Origin: Caldilineaceae bacterium
Lineage (GTDB): Bacteria; Chloroflexota; Anaerolineae; Caldilineales; Caldilineaceae
Direction of reading: 5' to 3'
Assembly: GCA_958295845.1 (NCBI GenBank)
Contig: OY282376.1
Coordinates: 2,741,022 to 2,805,021 of the forward strand
Length of the DNA: 64,000 nt
Positions 32,122 through 63,799 of this stretch are shown piece by piece; positions within the stretch are counted from its first letter, which is position 1; the number at the start of each line of letters is the position of its first letter. The notes beneath the pieces are model-generated. The model was not told the DNA's origin. It worked only from the letters and a program-made list of their open reading frames with translations, and made no database searches. The translations under genes and the position numbers were made by a program.

Positions 32122-32406
32122 GGGCAACGGCGACTTCAACATCTTTTAGCCACGGAGGGCCACGGAGGGGCACGGAGAACGGCAACTGCAACTGCAACTT
32201 CAACACCTTTTGGAACCACGGAGGGCCACGGAGGGGCACGGAGAACGGCAACTGCAACCGAAACTGCAACACCTTTCTTAGCCACTGAGGGGCACGGAGA
32301 ACGGCAACTGCAACTGCAAGTTCAACACCTTTGTCCACGGAGGGCCACGGAGGGCCACGGAGAACTGCAACTTCAAAACCTTAGTCCGGGGAGGGCCACG
32401 GAAGGA
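32122..32406 (+). repeat. Composite CACGGAG/CAACTTC repeat array 1
   Basis: About four imperfect units. Each has CCACGGAGGG, CCACGGAGGGG and CACGGAGAA in a row, then CGGCAACTGCAAC with a variable number of CAACTG/CAACTT hexamers, then CAACACCTTTT. One unit lacks one CACGGAG block. The same family recurs at 37.9, 45.2, 47.5 and 50.7 kb. Confidence 0.9.
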
Positions 32407-34113: not shown

Positions 34114-34117
34114 TATT

Positions 34118-34165
34118 GATCACTCATCCATCTGATCACTCATCCGTCTGATCACTCATCCATCT
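34118..34165 (+). repeat. Three tandem 16-bp repeats abutting the permease start codon
   Basis: GATCACTCATCCATCT is repeated three times (34118-34133, 34134-34149, 34150-34165; the middle copy has G for A). The permease ATG begins at 34167. The repeats occupy the place of the ribosome-binding site, and no Shine-Dalgarno sequence is visible. Confidence 0.85.
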
Positions 34166-34166
34166 G

Positions 34167-35096
34167 ATGGACAGCCCTGGAATCAACCCAGTCAAAGAGA
34201 AGAAGGGACGCGGCCTGCTCTGGTCTGAAACCAGGGACGGGTTCCTGTTTATCCTGCCGTGGATGTTCGGCTTTCTCATATTTACGGCCGGGCCGATGCT
34301 GGCGTCGCTCTATATTTCTTTGACGCGCTGGGAGATCGTGACGCCTTCGGTTTGGGTGGGCGGGGCGCAGTATGTGAAGTTGTTCAGTGACGACCGCTTC
34401 TGGCTAAGCTTATACAACACAAGTTACTACGTGTTTATCGGTGTGCCGCTGCATTTGTTGATGGCGCTGCTGGCGGCACTGGCGGTGAACATGAACTTGC
34501 GGGGCATTCACTACTTCCGCACGGCCTACTATGTGCCCTCGTTGACGCCGGTGGTGGCCAATTCGATCCTGTGGGTGTGGATATTCCACCCTTCGTGGGG
34601 GCTGGCCAACGCTTTTCTGGAGTGGATCGGTCTGGAGGGGCTGTACTGGCTACAGGACCCGCGGCTGGCGAAGCCGGCGTTGATCATTATGAGCTTCTGG
34701 TCGATTGGGGGCCAGATGGTGATTCTGCTGGCGGGGCTCAAGGGCATCCCGATACCGCTCTACGAGGCGGCGGCGATCGATGGGGCCAACTGGTGGGGCC
34801 GGTTTTGGCGTATCACCTTGCCGTTGTTGACACCGGCACTGTTTTTCAACCTGATCATTGCCATCATCGGCGCGTTTCAGATATTTACGCAGGCGTACAT
34901 CATGACCGAGGGCGGTCCGAACTATTCGACTCTCTTCTACCTACTCTATCTATTCCGCGCCGCATTCGAGAATTTCCGCATGGGCTACGCGTCGGCGATG
35001 GCCTGGGTCCTGTTTATCATTGTCCTCTTATTCACCATCATTCAGTTTATGCTGTCGGACCGGTGGGTCTTCTACGAAGGCGATCTGCGCCGCTAG
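34167..35096 (+). CDS. Carbohydrate ABC transporter permease (MalF/UgpA type)
   Basis: A 309-residue inner-membrane permease with six helices. The first spans about 30-55 (FLFILPWMFGFLIFTAGP). The cytoplasmic EAA loop is YEAAAIDGANWWGRFWRITL near 198-217. The MTEGGPNYSTLFYLLYLF segment before the last helices is typical of the MalF/UgpA family. It pairs with the following MalG-type gene. No ABC ATPase is encoded nearby; such importers often share an MsmX/UgpC-like ATPase encoded elsewhere. The ATG lacks a Shine-Dalgarno and directly follows three tandem repeats. Confidence 0.93.
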   Translation: MDSPGINPVKEKKGRGLLWSETRDGFLFILPWMFGFLIFTAGPMLASLYISLTRWEIVTPSVWVGGAQYVKLFSDDRFWLSLYNTSYYVFIGVPLHLLMALLAALAVNMNLRGIHYFRTAYYVPSLTPVVANSILWVWIFHPSWGLANAFLEWIGLEGLYWLQDPRLAKPALIIMSFWSIGGQMVILLAGLKGIPIPLYEAAAIDGANWWGRFWRITLPLLTPALFFNLIIAIIGAFQIFTQAYIMTEGGPNYSTLFYLLYLFRAAFENFRMGYASAMAWVLFIIVLLFTIIQFMLSDRWVFYEGDLRR

Positions 35097-37050: not shown

Positions 37051-37854
37051 TTGCATACGACGATCGGGGCGCTGGCAGCGCGCGCGGAGCATACCCTTCT
37101 GCGAGTGGAAGGCCGGGTCCTGCACGTCATCCTCAACCGTCCCCAGGTACTCAACGCCCTCCATCCCCCAGCCCATTTTGAACTGGCAGAGATATTCGAC
37201 GCTTTTGCGGTAGACGGCGATCTTTGGATCGCTGTCGTACGGGGCGCGGGCGGGCGCAGTTTCTGCGCGGGCACGGATCTGAAGGCGTTGGCCGCGGGAG
37301 GGCGGGACGAGTACCCGCCGAGCGGGTTCGCAGGGCTGACCAGGCGCTTCGACCTGGAAAAGCCGGTGGTGGCGGCGGTGAACGGACTTGCGCTCGGGGG
37401 CGGGCTGGAGATCGCACTGGCCTGTGATCTTATCGTGGCGGCAGAGCATGCCCGGTTCGGGTTTCCGGAGCCGCGGGTGGGGCTGGCGGCGATGGGTGGG
37501 GGCGTGCACCGGCTGGTGCGGCAGCTGCCTGACAAGGTGGCGATGGGACTGCTGTTGACGGGAAGGCAGTTCAGCGCGCAGGAGGGCCTGGCGTACGGGC
37601 TTGTGAATGAGGTTGTGCCGGGTGAGCGCCTGGATCTGGCGGTTGAGGGTTGGGTTGAGGATATGTTGGCGTGCGCGCCGCTGGCTTTGCGGGCGACGAA
37701 GCAGGTGGCACGGCGGAATCTTGATCATGCTGCTTTGGCTGATGCGATTGGGGTGGATTATCCGGCTGTGGGGAGGATGCTGGCGAGTGAGGATGCGGTG
37801 GAGGGGCCGCGGGCTTTTGCTGAGAAGCGGGCGCCGCGATGGCGGGGTCGGTGA
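37051..37854 (+). CDS. Enoyl-CoA hydratase/isomerase family protein (crotonase)
   Basis: A 267-residue crotonase-fold enzyme acting on acyl-CoA thioesters. The oxyanion-hole segments are RSFCAGTDLKAL near 70-81 and NGLALGGGLEIALACDL near 111-127, and the two catalytic Glu positions are filled (GGGLE and FPEPRVG). TTG start at 37051 preceded by AGGAACA. It follows the amidohydrolase by eight bases. The stop codon is directly joined to a composite repeat array: the TGA overlaps the unit's (G)GAAGGGCAAC, so the present C-terminus, rich in Arg (KRAPRWRGR), may have been trimmed or set by the repeat. Confidence 0.9.
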   Translation: MHTTIGALAARAEHTLLRVEGRVLHVILNRPQVLNALHPPAHFELAEIFDAFAVDGDLWIAVVRGAGGRSFCAGTDLKALAAGGRDEYPPSGFAGLTRRFDLEKPVVAAVNGLALGGGLEIALACDLIVAAEHARFGFPEPRVGLAAMGGGVHRLVRQLPDKVAMGLLLTGRQFSAQEGLAYGLVNEVVPGERLDLAVEGWVEDMLACAPLALRATKQVARRNLDHAALADAIGVDYPAVGRMLASEDAVEGPRAFAEKRAPRWRGR

Positions 37855-38166
37855 AGGGCAACGGCGACTTCAACACCTTTTTTAGCCACGGAGGGCCACG
37901 AAGGGGCACGGAGAAGGGCAACTTCAACACCTTTTTTAGCCACGGAGGGCCACAGAGGGGCACGGTAAAGGGCAACTTCAACTTCAACACTTTTTTTAGC
38001 CACGGAGGGCCACGGAGGGGCACGGAGAAGGGCAACTTCAACTTCAACGTCTTTTGTCCACGGAGGGCCACGGAGGGCCACGGAGAACGGCAACTTCAAC
38101 TTCAACGTCTTTTGTCCACGAAGGACCACGAAGGACCACGAAGTACGTCTTTTGTCCACAGAAGGC
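37853..38166 (+). repeat. Composite CACGGAG/CAACTTC repeat array 2
   Basis: Five to six units of the family described at 32.1 kb, beginning inside the stop codon of the crotonase gene. Here the CAACTTC part varies from one to two hexamers and the spacer is TTTTTTAGC or TTTTGT. The final unit has decayed to CCACGAAGGA three times. Confidence 0.9.
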
Positions 38167-42026: not shown

Positions 42027-42611
42027 TTGGCCTACAATCCTGATATTCATCGGCGCAGGTCTATTCGGGCGCGCGGGTACGATTATACGCGTGGTGGCGC
42101 ATATTTCGTCACGACTGTTGTGCAGGGCAGGTTGTGTCTGTTTGGAAGTGTGGTTGACGGAGAGATGGTTTTGAGTGAGGCGGGGAGAATGGTGCGGCGG
42201 ATTTGGGAGGGGTTGGTCGATAGGTTTCCTGTTGTGGAGTTGGATGGGTTTGTAGTGATGCCCAACCATGTTCACGGCGTTATTTTTATCCGGGAACCAT
42301 TGGCAGTTACGGATGCAACGGAGGGAGGAATGGCAAGGGGCGGCCCTATGTTAGGAGAGATTGTCGGGGCGTTCAAGTCTGTGACGACTGTGGAGTATGG
42401 TAACGGTGTTCGGAAGAAGGGTTGGCGGCCGTATGATAGGCGGTTGTGGCAGAGAAATTTTTTTGATCGCGTTGTGAGGAATGCGCGGGAGTTAAGTTTG
42501 ATCAAGGAGTATATTGCGAATAACCCTGTGAATTGGGAGTCTGATGGGGAGCATCCTAGCGGGAGTTTGGGTCGTGCTGGACGTTGGGATAGCCCTTGGG
42601 AGGGGGAATAG
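42027..42611 (+). CDS. REP-associated tyrosine transposase (RAYT, Y1/HUH family)
   Basis: A 194-residue single-strand DNA transposase of the Y1 (IS200-like) HUH superfamily. VVMPNHVHGVIF at 77-88 contains the HUH pair His81/His83. RLWQRNFFDRVVRN at 139-152 and EYIANNPVNW at 161-170 form the RAYT C-terminal signature, with Tyr162 in the place of the catalytic Tyr of the E. coli enzyme. It is full length, with no frameshift. RAYTs are domesticated transposases that bind and process REP palindromes. Directly downstream lies an array of GTAG-headed palindromes (42.66-43.32 kb), its likely substrate. No IS200 left or right ends were found. Confidence 0.93.
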   Translation: MAYNPDIHRRRSIRARGYDYTRGGAYFVTTVVQGRLCLFGSVVDGEMVLSEAGRMVRRIWEGLVDRFPVVELDGFVVMPNHVHGVIFIREPLAVTDATEGGMARGGPMLGEIVGAFKSVTTVEYGNGVRKKGWRPYDRRLWQRNFFDRVVRNARELSLIKEYIANNPVNWESDGEHPSGSLGRAGRWDSPWEGE

Positions 42612-42660
42612 GCGGGAGTCGGTACGTTTCTGTTAGGGAGTGGCATGCGAGGGAAACGGG

Positions 42661-43322
42661 GCAGTCACGAGGGGTGGCCGTACGTGTGGTGAGGGGAACT
42701 GGGCACCCACGAGGGGTGGCCGTACGTGTGGTGGAAGCTGAGAGTTGGGGGGTGGCGGGCACCCACAAGGGGTGCCCCTACGGGTGGTGGAAGCTGAGAG
42801 TCGGGGGGAGGCGGGCACCCACAAGGGGTGCCCCTACGGGTGGTGGAAGCTGAGAGTTGGGGGGTGGCGGGCACCCACAAGGGGTGCCCCTACGGGTGGT
42901 GAGGCTGAGAGTTGGGGGGTGGCGGGCACCCACAAGGGGTGCCCCTACGGGTGGGGAGGCTGAGAGTTGGGGGGTGGCGGGCACCCACAAGGGGTGCCCC
43001 TACGGGTGGGGAGGCTGAGAGTTGGGGGGTGGCGGGCACCCTACGGGTGGTGAGGCTGAGAGTTGGGGGGTGGTGGGCACCCACAAGGGGTGCCCCTACG
43101 GGTGGTGGAAGCTGAGAGTTGGGGGGTGGCGGGCACCCACAAGGGGTGCCCCTACGGGTGGGGAGGCTGAGAGTTGGGGGGAGGCGGGCACCCACAAGGG
43201 GTGCCCCTACGGGTGGGGAGGCTGAGAGTTGGGGGGAGGCGGGCACCCACAAGGGGTGCCCCTACGGGTGGGGAGGCTGAGAGTTGGGGGGTGGTGGGCA
43301 CCCACAAGGGGTGCCCCTACGG
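42661..43322 (-). repeat. Tandem array of REP-like palindromes (about 12 units of 55-56 bp)
   Basis: Each unit contains, on the minus strand, GTAG followed by GGGCACCC-CTTGT-GGGTGCCC, a perfect 8-bp stem with 5-base loop, then a CCRCC-type spacer ending in CTCTCAGC. Palindromes begin on the plus strand at 42701, 42757, 42813, 42869, 42924, 42979, 43034, 43075, 43131, 43186, 43241 and 43296. The unit at 43034 is shortened by about 14 bases and loses one arm. The unit at 42701 and one before it (42661) are degenerate, reading GGCCGTACG. All units have the same orientation. Confidence 0.93.
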
Positions 43323-45091: not shown

Positions 45092-45179
45092 TTGGGCGGT
45101 CCTTCTGACTGGGATTTTAGGGTTGGTTTGGTTGGAATCTGTTGGAGATTGATCTGCCTAAAGTAAGGGTGAACACCTC

Positions 45180-45455
45180 TTTTTAGCCACGGAGGGCCAC
45201 GGAGGGGCACGGAGAACGGCAACTGCAACTTCAAGACCTTTTGACCACGGAGGGCCACGGAGGGGCACGGAGAACGGCAACGGCAACTTCAACACCTTTT
45301 GACCACGGAGGGCCACGGAGGGGCACGGAGAACGGCAAGGGCAACGGCAACTTCAACACCTTTTGTCCACGGAGGGCCACGGAGGGGCACGGAGAACGGC
45401 AAGGGCAACGGCAACTTCAACACCTTCTGTTCGCGGTGGGCCACGGAGGGGCACT
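45180..45455 (+). repeat. Composite CACGGAG/CAACTTC repeat array 3
   Basis: Four well-conserved units and a decayed fifth, spacing about 60 bases, in the gap between two minus-strand genes. Units differ mainly in the number and type of hexamers after GAACGGCAA (GGGCAACGGCAACTTC versus CTGCAACTTC). Confidence 0.9.
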
Positions 45456-47474: not shown

Positions 47475-47704
47475 CAGGGGCCACGGAGAAGGGCAACTTC
47501 AACATCTTTTTTGCCACGGAGGGCCACGGAGGGGCACGGAGAACGGCAACTTCAACACCTTTTTAACCACGGAGGGACGCGGAGGTGGACGGAGGACGGC
47601 AACTTCAACACCCTTTTAGCCACGGAGGGCCACAGAGAGGCACGGAGAACGGCAACTTCAACACCTCTCTGACCATGGAGGGCCACTTAGAGGCACGGAG
47701 AACA
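47475..47704 (+). repeat. Composite CACGGAG/CAACTTC repeat array 4
   Basis: Five units, more diverged than in other arrays (for example GGACGCGGAGGTGGACGGAGGACGG), each with only one GGCAACTTCAACACC block. It lies in the gap between the divergent ThuA and GxxExxY genes, which otherwise shows no recognisable gene between 47372 and 47900. Confidence 0.88.
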
Positions 47705-50720: not shown

Positions 50721-50949
50721 AACACCTTTTTTAGCCACGGAGGGCCACGGAGGGGCACGGAGAACGGCAACTTCAACTTCAACACCTTTTGTCCACGGAG
50801 GGCCACGGAGGGGCGCGGAGAACGGCAACTTCAACTTCAACACCTTTTGTCCACGGAGGGCCACGGAGGGCCACGGAGAACGGCAACTTCAACAGCTTTT
50901 GTCCACGGAGGGGCACTGAGGGGCACGGAGAAGGGCAACTTCGACACCT
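50721..50949 (+). repeat. Composite CACGGAG/CAACTTC repeat array 5
   Basis: Four units between convergent genes (enolase-superfamily stop at 50686, MDR stop at 51019). Some units carry CCACGGAGGGCCACGGAGGGGC, others CCACGGAGGGCCACGGAGGGCC, and one or two CAACTTC hexamers. Confidence 0.9.
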
Positions 50950-61610: not shown

Positions 61611-61866
61611 CGAGATGCTGCGAGCTCACGGCTATTCGTCGCGTTCTATTGCGAGTTATATTTAGCGAGTGATGAAAGGCAGATTGCCGAACTGCAAGTC
61701 AATTGCAGGCGACACCAATTGGCGGCGGGTTACGGCACGTTGTGGACGATAAGCGGGTGAGACGGCCTGACAACATGCAGTCTTGGCGCGTCAAAGACTG
61801 TGTGAGTCAAGACTTAAACCGGCCCTGCCGGCGCCAGTGTCTGGTGCGGCGATTAGGAGAAAAACT

Positions 61867-62868
61867 GTGAATCGCAGAAGGATTCTCTGGCTGTTGATCC
61901 TGGTATCGGCGGCACTACTACTTGGCGGTTGCGGTGTACCACGTGAAGGCGTGGTGGACTGGAATACGGCAGAGGCAGATGGCTATTGGCAGGTACTGAT
62001 TGTATTTCCCCTGGCAAAGTCTCTAATTTGGCTTAACACAAGTATGGTCAATTGGGACATACCCTACAGTTGGGGATTTGCCATCATTGTCTTCACCGTA
62101 ATCATAAAAATGATTACGTTCCCGTTAACGATGATCCAGATAAAGAGCATGCAGGCTCAGAAGAATATGCAGCCACAGCTGCAGGAGCTACAGAAGAAGT
62201 TCGGGAAGAACAAGGACAAGATGGCGCAAGAGCAGATGAAGCTATATCGCGAGGCGGGTGTGAATCCGCTGAGCGGCTGCTTGCCTATGGTTGTGCAAAT
62301 GCCGGTGCTATTTGGGTTGTATTCGGCTTTGGTGGCGCTAGGCCCCTCCTTGTCGAATGCTCGCTTCTTTTGGATCCCCGATCTTGGTTTTCCAGAGTTC
62401 ACGCGGGGGCTTGCCTGGATTCCCGAGAAGTTCAATGAGGGCGAGTACCTGCTCTTGCTGGCGTACCTGGTGTTACCGGCTTTGCTCATGGTCAGTCAAG
62501 TCTACATGCAGCGCATGACGACGGCGACTACGCCGCCCGGCAGCCAAGGCCAGGCCGGAATGATGAAGCAGATGACGACGATCATGACTTTGATGTTCGG
62601 CTTCTTTACATTGCAGGTGCCGGCAGGATTGTCGTTGTACTGGGTTACAAGTAACCTGTTACAGTTGGGGCAGACGTACATCGCCAACTACCTGGGTGGG
62701 GTGAACAAAGTCATCGCGCCGGTGGCGCCGCAGGCTGTGACTGCTGCGGTAGGCGCGGGAACCGGGGACGGCGGTTCGACGGTGTCCCCGGCAGCAGAAG
62801 CGACAGAAACGCAACAAAAGAGTACGCCACAGCGTCGACGGAAACGGCGTAATCGAAAGAGACGATAA
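61867..62868 (+). CDS. yidC: Membrane protein insertase YidC
   Basis: A 333-residue YidC/Oxa1 insertase of the shorter, Gram-positive-like type without the large periplasmic domain. The signal sequence LILVSAALLLGGC ends in a lipobox Cys, as in Bacillus SpoIIIJ. A first core helix region NWDIPYSWGFAIIVFTVIIK near 62-81 is followed by the cytoplasmic hairpin MQAQKNMQPQLQELQKKFGK near 96-115, NPLSGCLPMVVQMPVLFGLY near 132-151 and two or three more helices. The C-terminus is basic (RRRKRRNRKRR), as expected for ribosome contact. GTG at 61867 has AGGAG upstream; a longer in-frame start is within the spacer. khpB starts two bases after the stop. Confidence 0.95.
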   Translation: MNRRRILWLLILVSAALLLGGCGVPREGVVDWNTAEADGYWQVLIVFPLAKSLIWLNTSMVNWDIPYSWGFAIIVFTVIIKMITFPLTMIQIKSMQAQKNMQPQLQELQKKFGKNKDKMAQEQMKLYREAGVNPLSGCLPMVVQMPVLFGLYSALVALGPSLSNARFFWIPDLGFPEFTRGLAWIPEKFNEGEYLLLLAYLVLPALLMVSQVYMQRMTTATTPPGSQGQAGMMKQMTTIMTLMFGFFTLQVPAGLSLYWVTSNLLQLGQTYIANYLGGVNKVIAPVAPQAVTAAVGAGTGDGGSTVSPAAEATETQQKSTPQRRRKRRNRKRR

Positions 62869-62869
62869 G

Positions 62870-63799
62870 ATGAATGAAGGTCAGAGCTACGAGTACAGGG
62901 CTAAGACCGTAGAGGCCGCTGTCGATGAAGGATTGCGCCAACATGGTGTATCCAGAGATGAGATCGAAATCGAAGTTATCGACGAGGGGAGTCGCGGAAT
63001 CCTTGGAATCGGGGCCTCCGATGCCCACGTTCGTCTGACTCGGAGAGTTGAGGAGCCGTCGCCGGAGGCCCAGCCCGAGGACGAGGGCGATGTTTCAGAA
63101 GAGACTGCGGTCGTTGCTGAGACAGAGGCGGCGTACAAAGGCGATAGCGGCCTTGTCGAGACGCCAGTCGAGGACATTGAACCGGACGAAGAGGACAGTG
63201 CCGAAGAGGACAGCGCCGAAGAGGACAGCGCCGAAGAGGACAGTGCCGAAGAGGACGGTGTCGAAGAGGACAGTGCCCCGGTCGAGTCGGAAGAGGCAGG
63301 TTCGGTTTCTGATGTCGAAGTTGATGAGGACGACGCAGAGCTGGAAGACCTCGCGTTCGATTTGTTGAATCAGATGATGGTTCACCTGGGGGTCGACGCT
63401 GAAATTGAGATTACCTGGCAAGACAATCCAGAGGAAAGCGACAGGGCGCTCTGCCTCAATGTAGTCGGGGAGGACTTAGGGATCCTCATTGGCCGCAACG
63501 GCGAGACACTTTCGAGCATGCAGTATCTAATTCGGCTCATGGTCAACCAAGAGCTGCACCGTTGGAAGAACATCGTTATCGATATAGACGGGTACAAGCA
63601 GAGGCGAGCTGAGCAGCTCAGCCAACTGGCCCACCGTCTGGCTGAGCAGGTCATTACGTCGGGGCGGCCTGCGTCATTGGAGCCGATGCCGGCAAGCGAG
63701 CGCCGTCTCGTCCACATTGCGTTACGCGACCACGAGCAGGTCTACACTTCGAGTACCGGAGAGGACACACGGCGTAAGGTACAGATCTTGCTAAAGTAG
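62870..63799 (+). CDS. khpB: RNA-binding protein KhpB (Jag, SpoIIIJ-associated)
   Basis: A 309-residue RNA-binding protein. The Jag N-terminal domain (5-57) ends with GSRGILGIGASDAHVRL. Residues 95-165 are an acidic linker with six EEDSA-type repeats. The KH domain follows, with GEDLGILIGRNGETLSSMQY near 203-222 holding the GxxG loop (GRNG). The R3H domain near 255-305 has EPMPASERRLVHIALRDHE. The protein binds many mRNAs and affects cell division in other bacteria. The ATG at 62870 follows yidC directly. The acidic insert is far longer than in most homologues. Confidence 0.94.
   Translation: MNEGQSYEYRAKTVEAAVDEGLRQHGVSRDEIEIEVIDEGSRGILGIGASDAHVRLTRRVEEPSPEAQPEDEGDVSEETAVVAETEAAYKGDSGLVETPVEDIEPDEEDSAEEDSAEEDSAEEDSAEEDGVEEDSAPVESEEAGSVSDVEVDEDDAELEDLAFDLLNQMMVHLGVDAEIEITWQDNPEESDRALCLNVVGEDLGILIGRNGETLSSMQYLIRLMVNQELHRWKNIVIDIDGYKQRRAEQLSQLAHRLAEQVITSGRPASLEPMPASERRLVHIALRDHEQVYTSSTGEDTRRKVQILLK
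63188..63277 (+). repeat. Six 15-bp tandem repeats inside khpB
   Basis: GAAGAGGACAGNGCC is repeated six times and encodes EEDSA units (one changed to EEDGV). The 15-base period keeps the frame, so copy number can vary without breaking the gene. Confidence 0.9.

Follow-up and report, generated by a model that had tools for sequence, protein, structure and literature searches.

How did a run of GTAG hairpins come to lie directly behind a RAYT gene, and did the encoded protein build it? The locus lies in the window, the 64,000-nucleotide stretch of Caldilineaceae bacterium DNA that was analyzed (contig OY282376.1, positions 2,741,022 to 2,805,021). We suggest, with a probability of roughly 82%, that it is a REPtron, a RAYT accompanied by its own GTAG hairpins directly downstream, and that the array is secondary, having arisen by local duplication. 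Its features are collected in Table 1.

Table 1. Features of the locus and the origin marker, in window positions; on the minus strand each unit starts at its higher coordinate.
Feature	Position	Strand	Remarks
RAYT / TnpA-REP gene (Y1 HUH transposase)	42027..42611	+	194 aa, TTG start, HVH 81-83, Tyr162, W141-Q142...R151 guide-binding motif
Unit 13	42659..42683	-	decayed REP, foot GTAC, 20/25 matches
Unit 12	42701..42725	-	decayed REP, foot GTAC, 22/25 matches
Tandem array	42726..43320	-	25-bp REP + 30-31-bp C-rich spacer, head to tail
Unit 11	42757..42781	-	intact REP, variant spacer end
Unit 10	42813..42837	-	intact REP
Unit 9	42869..42893	-	intact REP
Unit 8	42924..42948	-	intact REP
Unit 7	42979..43003	-	intact REP
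Unit 6	43004..43044	-	41 bp, REP minus 14 bp between GGG runs (GTAGGG-TGCCC)
Unit 5	43075..43099	-	intact REP
Unit 4	43131..43155	-	intact REP
Unit 3	43186..43210	-	intact REP
Unit 2	43241..43265	-	intact REP
Unit 1	43296..43320	-	intact REP, most distant from gene
yidC and jag	61783..63799	+	origin marker orienting replichores

The array consists of 13 units, all on the same strand, running from 43320 down to 42659. The initial annotation had described about twelve units of 55-56 bp in a single orientation, each with GTAG and a perfect 8-bp stem; the orientation stands, as does the spacing in the intact part, but the count is 13 and the perfect stem is confined to ten units, one other carrying a 14-bp deletion and two being decayed. 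The ten intact units share an identical 25-mer, GTAG-GGGCACCC-CTTGT-GGGTGCCC, in which GTAG is joined to the 8-bp stem with its GGGC/GCCC base of three G-C pairs. The decay toward the gene that had been called graded is seen in the two gene-proximal units, but the 25-mer is uniform across the intact ones. The truncated unit at 43044, read earlier as a possible failed product, is explained by ordinary slippage because its deletion lies between the GGG repeats that flank the hairpin. The exact 25-mer occurs ten times in the window array and four times elsewhere in 5.4 Mb, with none in a reversed control; the array is not a product of chance. Folded as DNA, its hairpin adopts the structure as drawn, at -10.3 kcal/mol (z = -3.7). 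An Rfam search of the locus gave no match, nor did a PADLOC search. Duplication of a larger block within the array (a 262-bp tandem-repeat row) was considered and rejected, as the unit types could not be convincingly aligned.

A search for copies beyond the array, proposed with the initial annotation, found solitary copies across the genome: a loosened pattern recovered 117 exact REP-family hairpins genome-wide, and none in a reversed control. An AGG stem dominates the dispersed REPs; the array's own ACC stem is a minority type, seen otherwise only in a few solitary copies. We dissected eight further clusters of 3-14 direct copies each, all far from the sole RAYT and each with its own 42-46 bp spacer, common within the cluster and mostly not between clusters. 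Neither the window array nor these eight clusters contained inverted REP pairs (BIME or REPIN order), all being direct. Solitary REPs lack the array spacer, and T directly follows the REP in 35 of 38 of them. TnpA-REP proteins that have been studied cleave at C|T (PMC8266576), and the T border of solitary REPs fits a putative processed border; the window array has no C|T border, its GCCC being followed by G or A. With ORFs called crudely, most sampled REPs lie in the gaps between long ones. By similarly crude calls, roughly half of the 20 solitary REPs sampled (L199-L218) sit between divergent genes and almost none between convergent ones, a preference unlike that of repeats in Pseudomonas (PMC2718517). 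Around many AGG REPs lies a larger GC-rich element, GGGCCTTCGGCCCTCCCTTGTGC...CCCCGCAACGCCCCGCCC, which is dispersed too and is seen upstream of AGG REPs (L179-L196).

Arrays appear to grow by local tandem duplication, because their spacers are locus-specific and several of them lie far from the RAYT. By homology, the RAYT would bind single-stranded GTAG hairpins, cut nearby at C|T and rejoin strands, and this activity would have scattered short REPs (about 25 bp) between genes. A REP together with about 30 bp of local flank would have been duplicated head to tail via slippage or unequal exchange, perhaps begun at hairpin-stalled or RAYT-nicked forks. The same head-to-tail growth, with different spacers, is found at other REP loci. 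Two earlier proposals find no support here. The locus had been seen as a self-contained REP-generating module, but similar arrays with their own spacers lie far from the RAYT, and the dominant dispersed stem is AGG, not ACC; a special amplification route had been invoked for the direct array, but the eight distant clusters are direct as well, and tandem REP arrays have already been described (PMC3116915, PMC3733652). Because the dominant AGG stem differs from the array's ACC, the bulk of the copies may have been spread by a RAYT other than the one in the window.

The nearest competitor to local duplication is that the RAYT itself builds the array, by rolling copies or strand transfer, and that the array is an active source of dispersed REPs. 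The array does adjoin the gene; four same-genus relatives carry AGG-stem REPs 3' of their RAYT, on the strand opposite to the gene, and in relative G014 six REPs follow one another head to tail 3' of the RAYT, spaced 82 and 85 bp. We nevertheless regard construction by the RAYT as quite improbable in view of the direct clusters at eight other loci far from it, the absence of the array spacer from solitary REPs, and the other stem in most dispersed copies.

The association of RAYT and GTAG hairpin, as claimed initially, holds in relatives. Neither of the two sequence-level outcomes that would have counted against the initial annotation, a palindrome without further genomic copies and a lack of pairing in related genomes, is seen. 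Of 37 related RAYT genes, drawn from many phyla, 29 have within 1 kb a perfect 8-bp stem with GTAG at its foot; the next-ranking tetranucleotides at such a foot are register shifts of GTAG, and unrelated ones reach at most four loci. REPs are also commoner in genomes with a RAYT than in genomes without (one-sided p = 0.02), a weak difference, as drafts break at arrays; the complete same-genus genome G004 has REPs, with no RAYT detected. The hairpin itself leaves a signature in stem variation: among 25 distinct genus copies, collected by a pattern that leaves three stem pairs free, those three pairs covary (92% paired): both sides change in 20 cells, where shuffles give 8.9, and the covariation is 0.254, where shuffles give 0.100. 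An ordinary minisatellite, placed beside a transposase gene by coincidence, would agree with the abundance of tandem repeats in the window and with a slippage length change that accounts for the truncated unit, but it has very little probability left: the dispersed copies, in which the 25-mer stands alone without the spacer, and the pairing at 29 of 37 loci already refute it for the most part, with the covarying stems a further point against it.

Judged by its sequence and predicted structure, the window protein is a RAYT / TnpA-REP. The ORF encodes a complete Y1/HUH protein, as first described; it begins at a TTG, its N-terminal MAYNPDIH is common to the protein and its relatives, and both His and the catalytic Tyr are invariant in 18 aligned sequences. 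NCBIfam REP_Tyr_transpos matches residues 20-168 with E 4.7e-14, its score of 52.5 bits being below the curated cut-off of 80 bits, and the match to transpos_IS200 is far weaker (E 0.0039); Pfam Y1_Tnp scores 25.4 bits, above its cut-off of 23. We compared an AlphaFold model (pLDDT 83.6, pTM 0.80) with the PDB using Foldseek. The lowest-rmsd match among Y1 transposases is 4er8, a TnpA-REP in complex with a REP hairpin (rmsd 2.4, TMq 0.55), which beats every IS200 transposase by both rmsd and TMq; other Y1 matches have an rmsd of 7-14. In E. coli TnpA-REP, W94, Q95 and R104 contact the GTAG guide (PMC6006769); W141, Q142 and R151 of the window protein align with these residues of 4er8 and are conserved. 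The 5.40-Mb one-contig genome has one RAYT copy, and the genes neighboring the RAYT vary between genomes of the same genus. That the locus is a decayed IS200/IS605 element with multiplied end hairpins is hardly credible: the Y1 fold is common to both, and the best Foldseek E-values, several slightly lower than that of 4er8, belong to IS200/IS605 transposases, but the family scores and rmsd values favor TnpA-REP, the gene is single-copy, the hairpins have 8-bp stems with a GTAG foot, and the flanking genes are metabolic or unassigned, with no tnpB recognized by Pfam or NCBIfam.

From sequence comparison, the window RAYT probably belongs to subclass 2.4 (RAYT group 4), to which in-frame REP insertions between HuH and Tyr are reported to be unique (PMC6006769). 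Hairpins of the GTAGGGGC type are inserted in frame between HUH and Tyr in 7 of 9 examined relatives (in-frame GTAG hairpins in L028, L031, L032, L033, L051, L054 and L063); the assignment is no more than probable because the window gene itself has no such insertion. Subclass 2.4 REPtrons resemble the window locus in their Y1 HUH protein, in GTAG hairpins with a GGG/CCC stem base near the gene, and in the in-frame hairpins of the window gene's relatives (PMC6006769); they differ in that here we find long single-orientation tandem arrays, a strong genome-wide strand polarity, and no REP inside the gene. The GTAG REP superfamily, including clustered GTAG-23 elements, likewise has the GTAG tag, a perfect short stem, and tandem clusters with flank, and singletons in other species have been reiterated in tandem together with flanking DNA (PMC3733652). 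In P. fluorescens SBW25, evenly spaced direct REP arrays run forward near 2 Mb and in reverse near 4 Mb (PMC3116915), similar to the arrays here in even spacing and in an orientation that flips between parts of the chromosome; most SBW25 REPs, however, form inverted pairs (REPINs), whereas in our host genome solitary REPs are polarized as well. The pairing of RAYT and REP is of a known kind, and an array like this one is ordinary among REPs; what is unexpected here, and deserves follow-up, is the strand polarity.

With arrays collapsed, GTAG lies on the C-rich strand of each replichore at 59 of 62 REP loci. The plus strand carries 29 of 30 loci between 0.1 and 2.7 Mb, and the minus strand 30 of 32 loci beyond; where GC skew was sampled, most values fall below zero in the first arc and above zero in the second. 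Locally, the REP strand follows from the sign of the skew over 6 kb in 19 of 20 sampled neighborhoods, the twentieth having a skew near zero, and among those 19 is an exception to the arc rule that sits in a segment of locally inverted skew. In a second complete genome of the genus (G015), skew was usable in 28 cases, and 24 of them agree. The third, G004 (loci L156-L175), which has no GC skew and no detected RAYT, carries many decayed REPs on both strands throughout. Gene-strand bias was rejected as a cause, being far too weak, with plus-strand coding fractions of 0.41-0.51; a KOPS-like polar motif was also rejected, since the stem gives both strands the G-rich word.

Which strand this is at the replication fork depends on the origin. 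An abrupt skew switch lies at 2.727 Mb, a little to the left of the window; yidC, jag and parAB lie together at 2.803-2.808 Mb, parA-parB just past the window (2,806,055-2,807,900; 2,806,897). This gene group is the usual neighborhood of the origin, and with the origin there the leading strand of this chromosome would be G-rich, as leading strands usually are. We place the origin at 2.72-2.81 Mb with considerable confidence. Other markers speak against this: dnaA, at 5.20 Mb, and the two rRNA operons, at 4.76 and 5.22 Mb, are far from that interval, in the direction of the other skew switch. A search for dif gave no convincing site, and one for DnaA-box clusters found none; parS-like sites were rejected as an origin marker, as the hits at 0.35 Mb have metabolic genes around them and no recognized parA or parB. 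With the window at the probable origin, the strand that carries GTAG would be the leading-strand template, provided that the markers locate the origin correctly.

The polarity need not stem from the RAYT, because another repeat family is polarized too: CACGGAG tandem repeats have their G-rich side on the G-rich strand in 9 of 9 clusters (1 Mb sampled). The dispersed GC-rich element is also polarized (32/35). Insertion bias, orientation-dependent loss, or selection on skewed repeats may each have produced the polarity. We give about even odds to a cause that works genome-wide, with strand-skewed repeats subject to selection or repair, in place of RAYT chemistry; the CACGGAG arrays and the GC-rich element share the polarity, and the related genome without GC skew shows none. 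Set against a genome-wide cause, REP classes other than AGG, mostly without the GC-rich flank, are polarized in 8 of 9 cases (small numbers), and the REP's own GTAG strand is not C-rich. More doubtful, and in our view rather unlikely, is a coupling to replication, in which REPs would spread as forks pass, the GTAG strand being built into the nascent lagging strand (the RAYT might, for instance, join REP single strands to the 3' ends of Okazaki fragments), or would persist only in the orientation that the RAYT cannot excise from the lagging-strand template. If true, such coupling would be the mirror image of IS200/IS605 transposition, and it would also force arrays to be head to tail. IS200/IS605 elements (IS608, ISDra2) have the same fold, the same predicted single-strand chemistry, and an orientation that follows replication, but their transposed strand is the lagging-strand template (PMC5371812), whereas the GTAG strand here is apparently the leading-strand template, given a partly uncertain origin.

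The mechanism of REP spread is still unproven. This complete chromosome combines a single RAYT, solitary REPs whose T border is conserved, and a strong tie of REPs to one replication strand, with a polarity that is repeated in a second genome and absent from a related genome without RAYT or skew. Comparisons built on it could address whether REPs are disseminated in a fork-coupled way, and to which strand they are coupled.

The window holds other repeats as well. Five tandem arrays of the CCACGGAGGG type, the kind of repeat polarized in 9 of 9 sampled clusters, share one orientation (window 32124-32376, 37849-38134, 45179-45454, 47476-47703 and 50721-50942). The 16-bp repeat TGATCACTCATCCATC is present in 3.2 copies at window 34117-34168, and a 15-bp tandem repeat of 6 copies lies inside jag (window 63187-63277).
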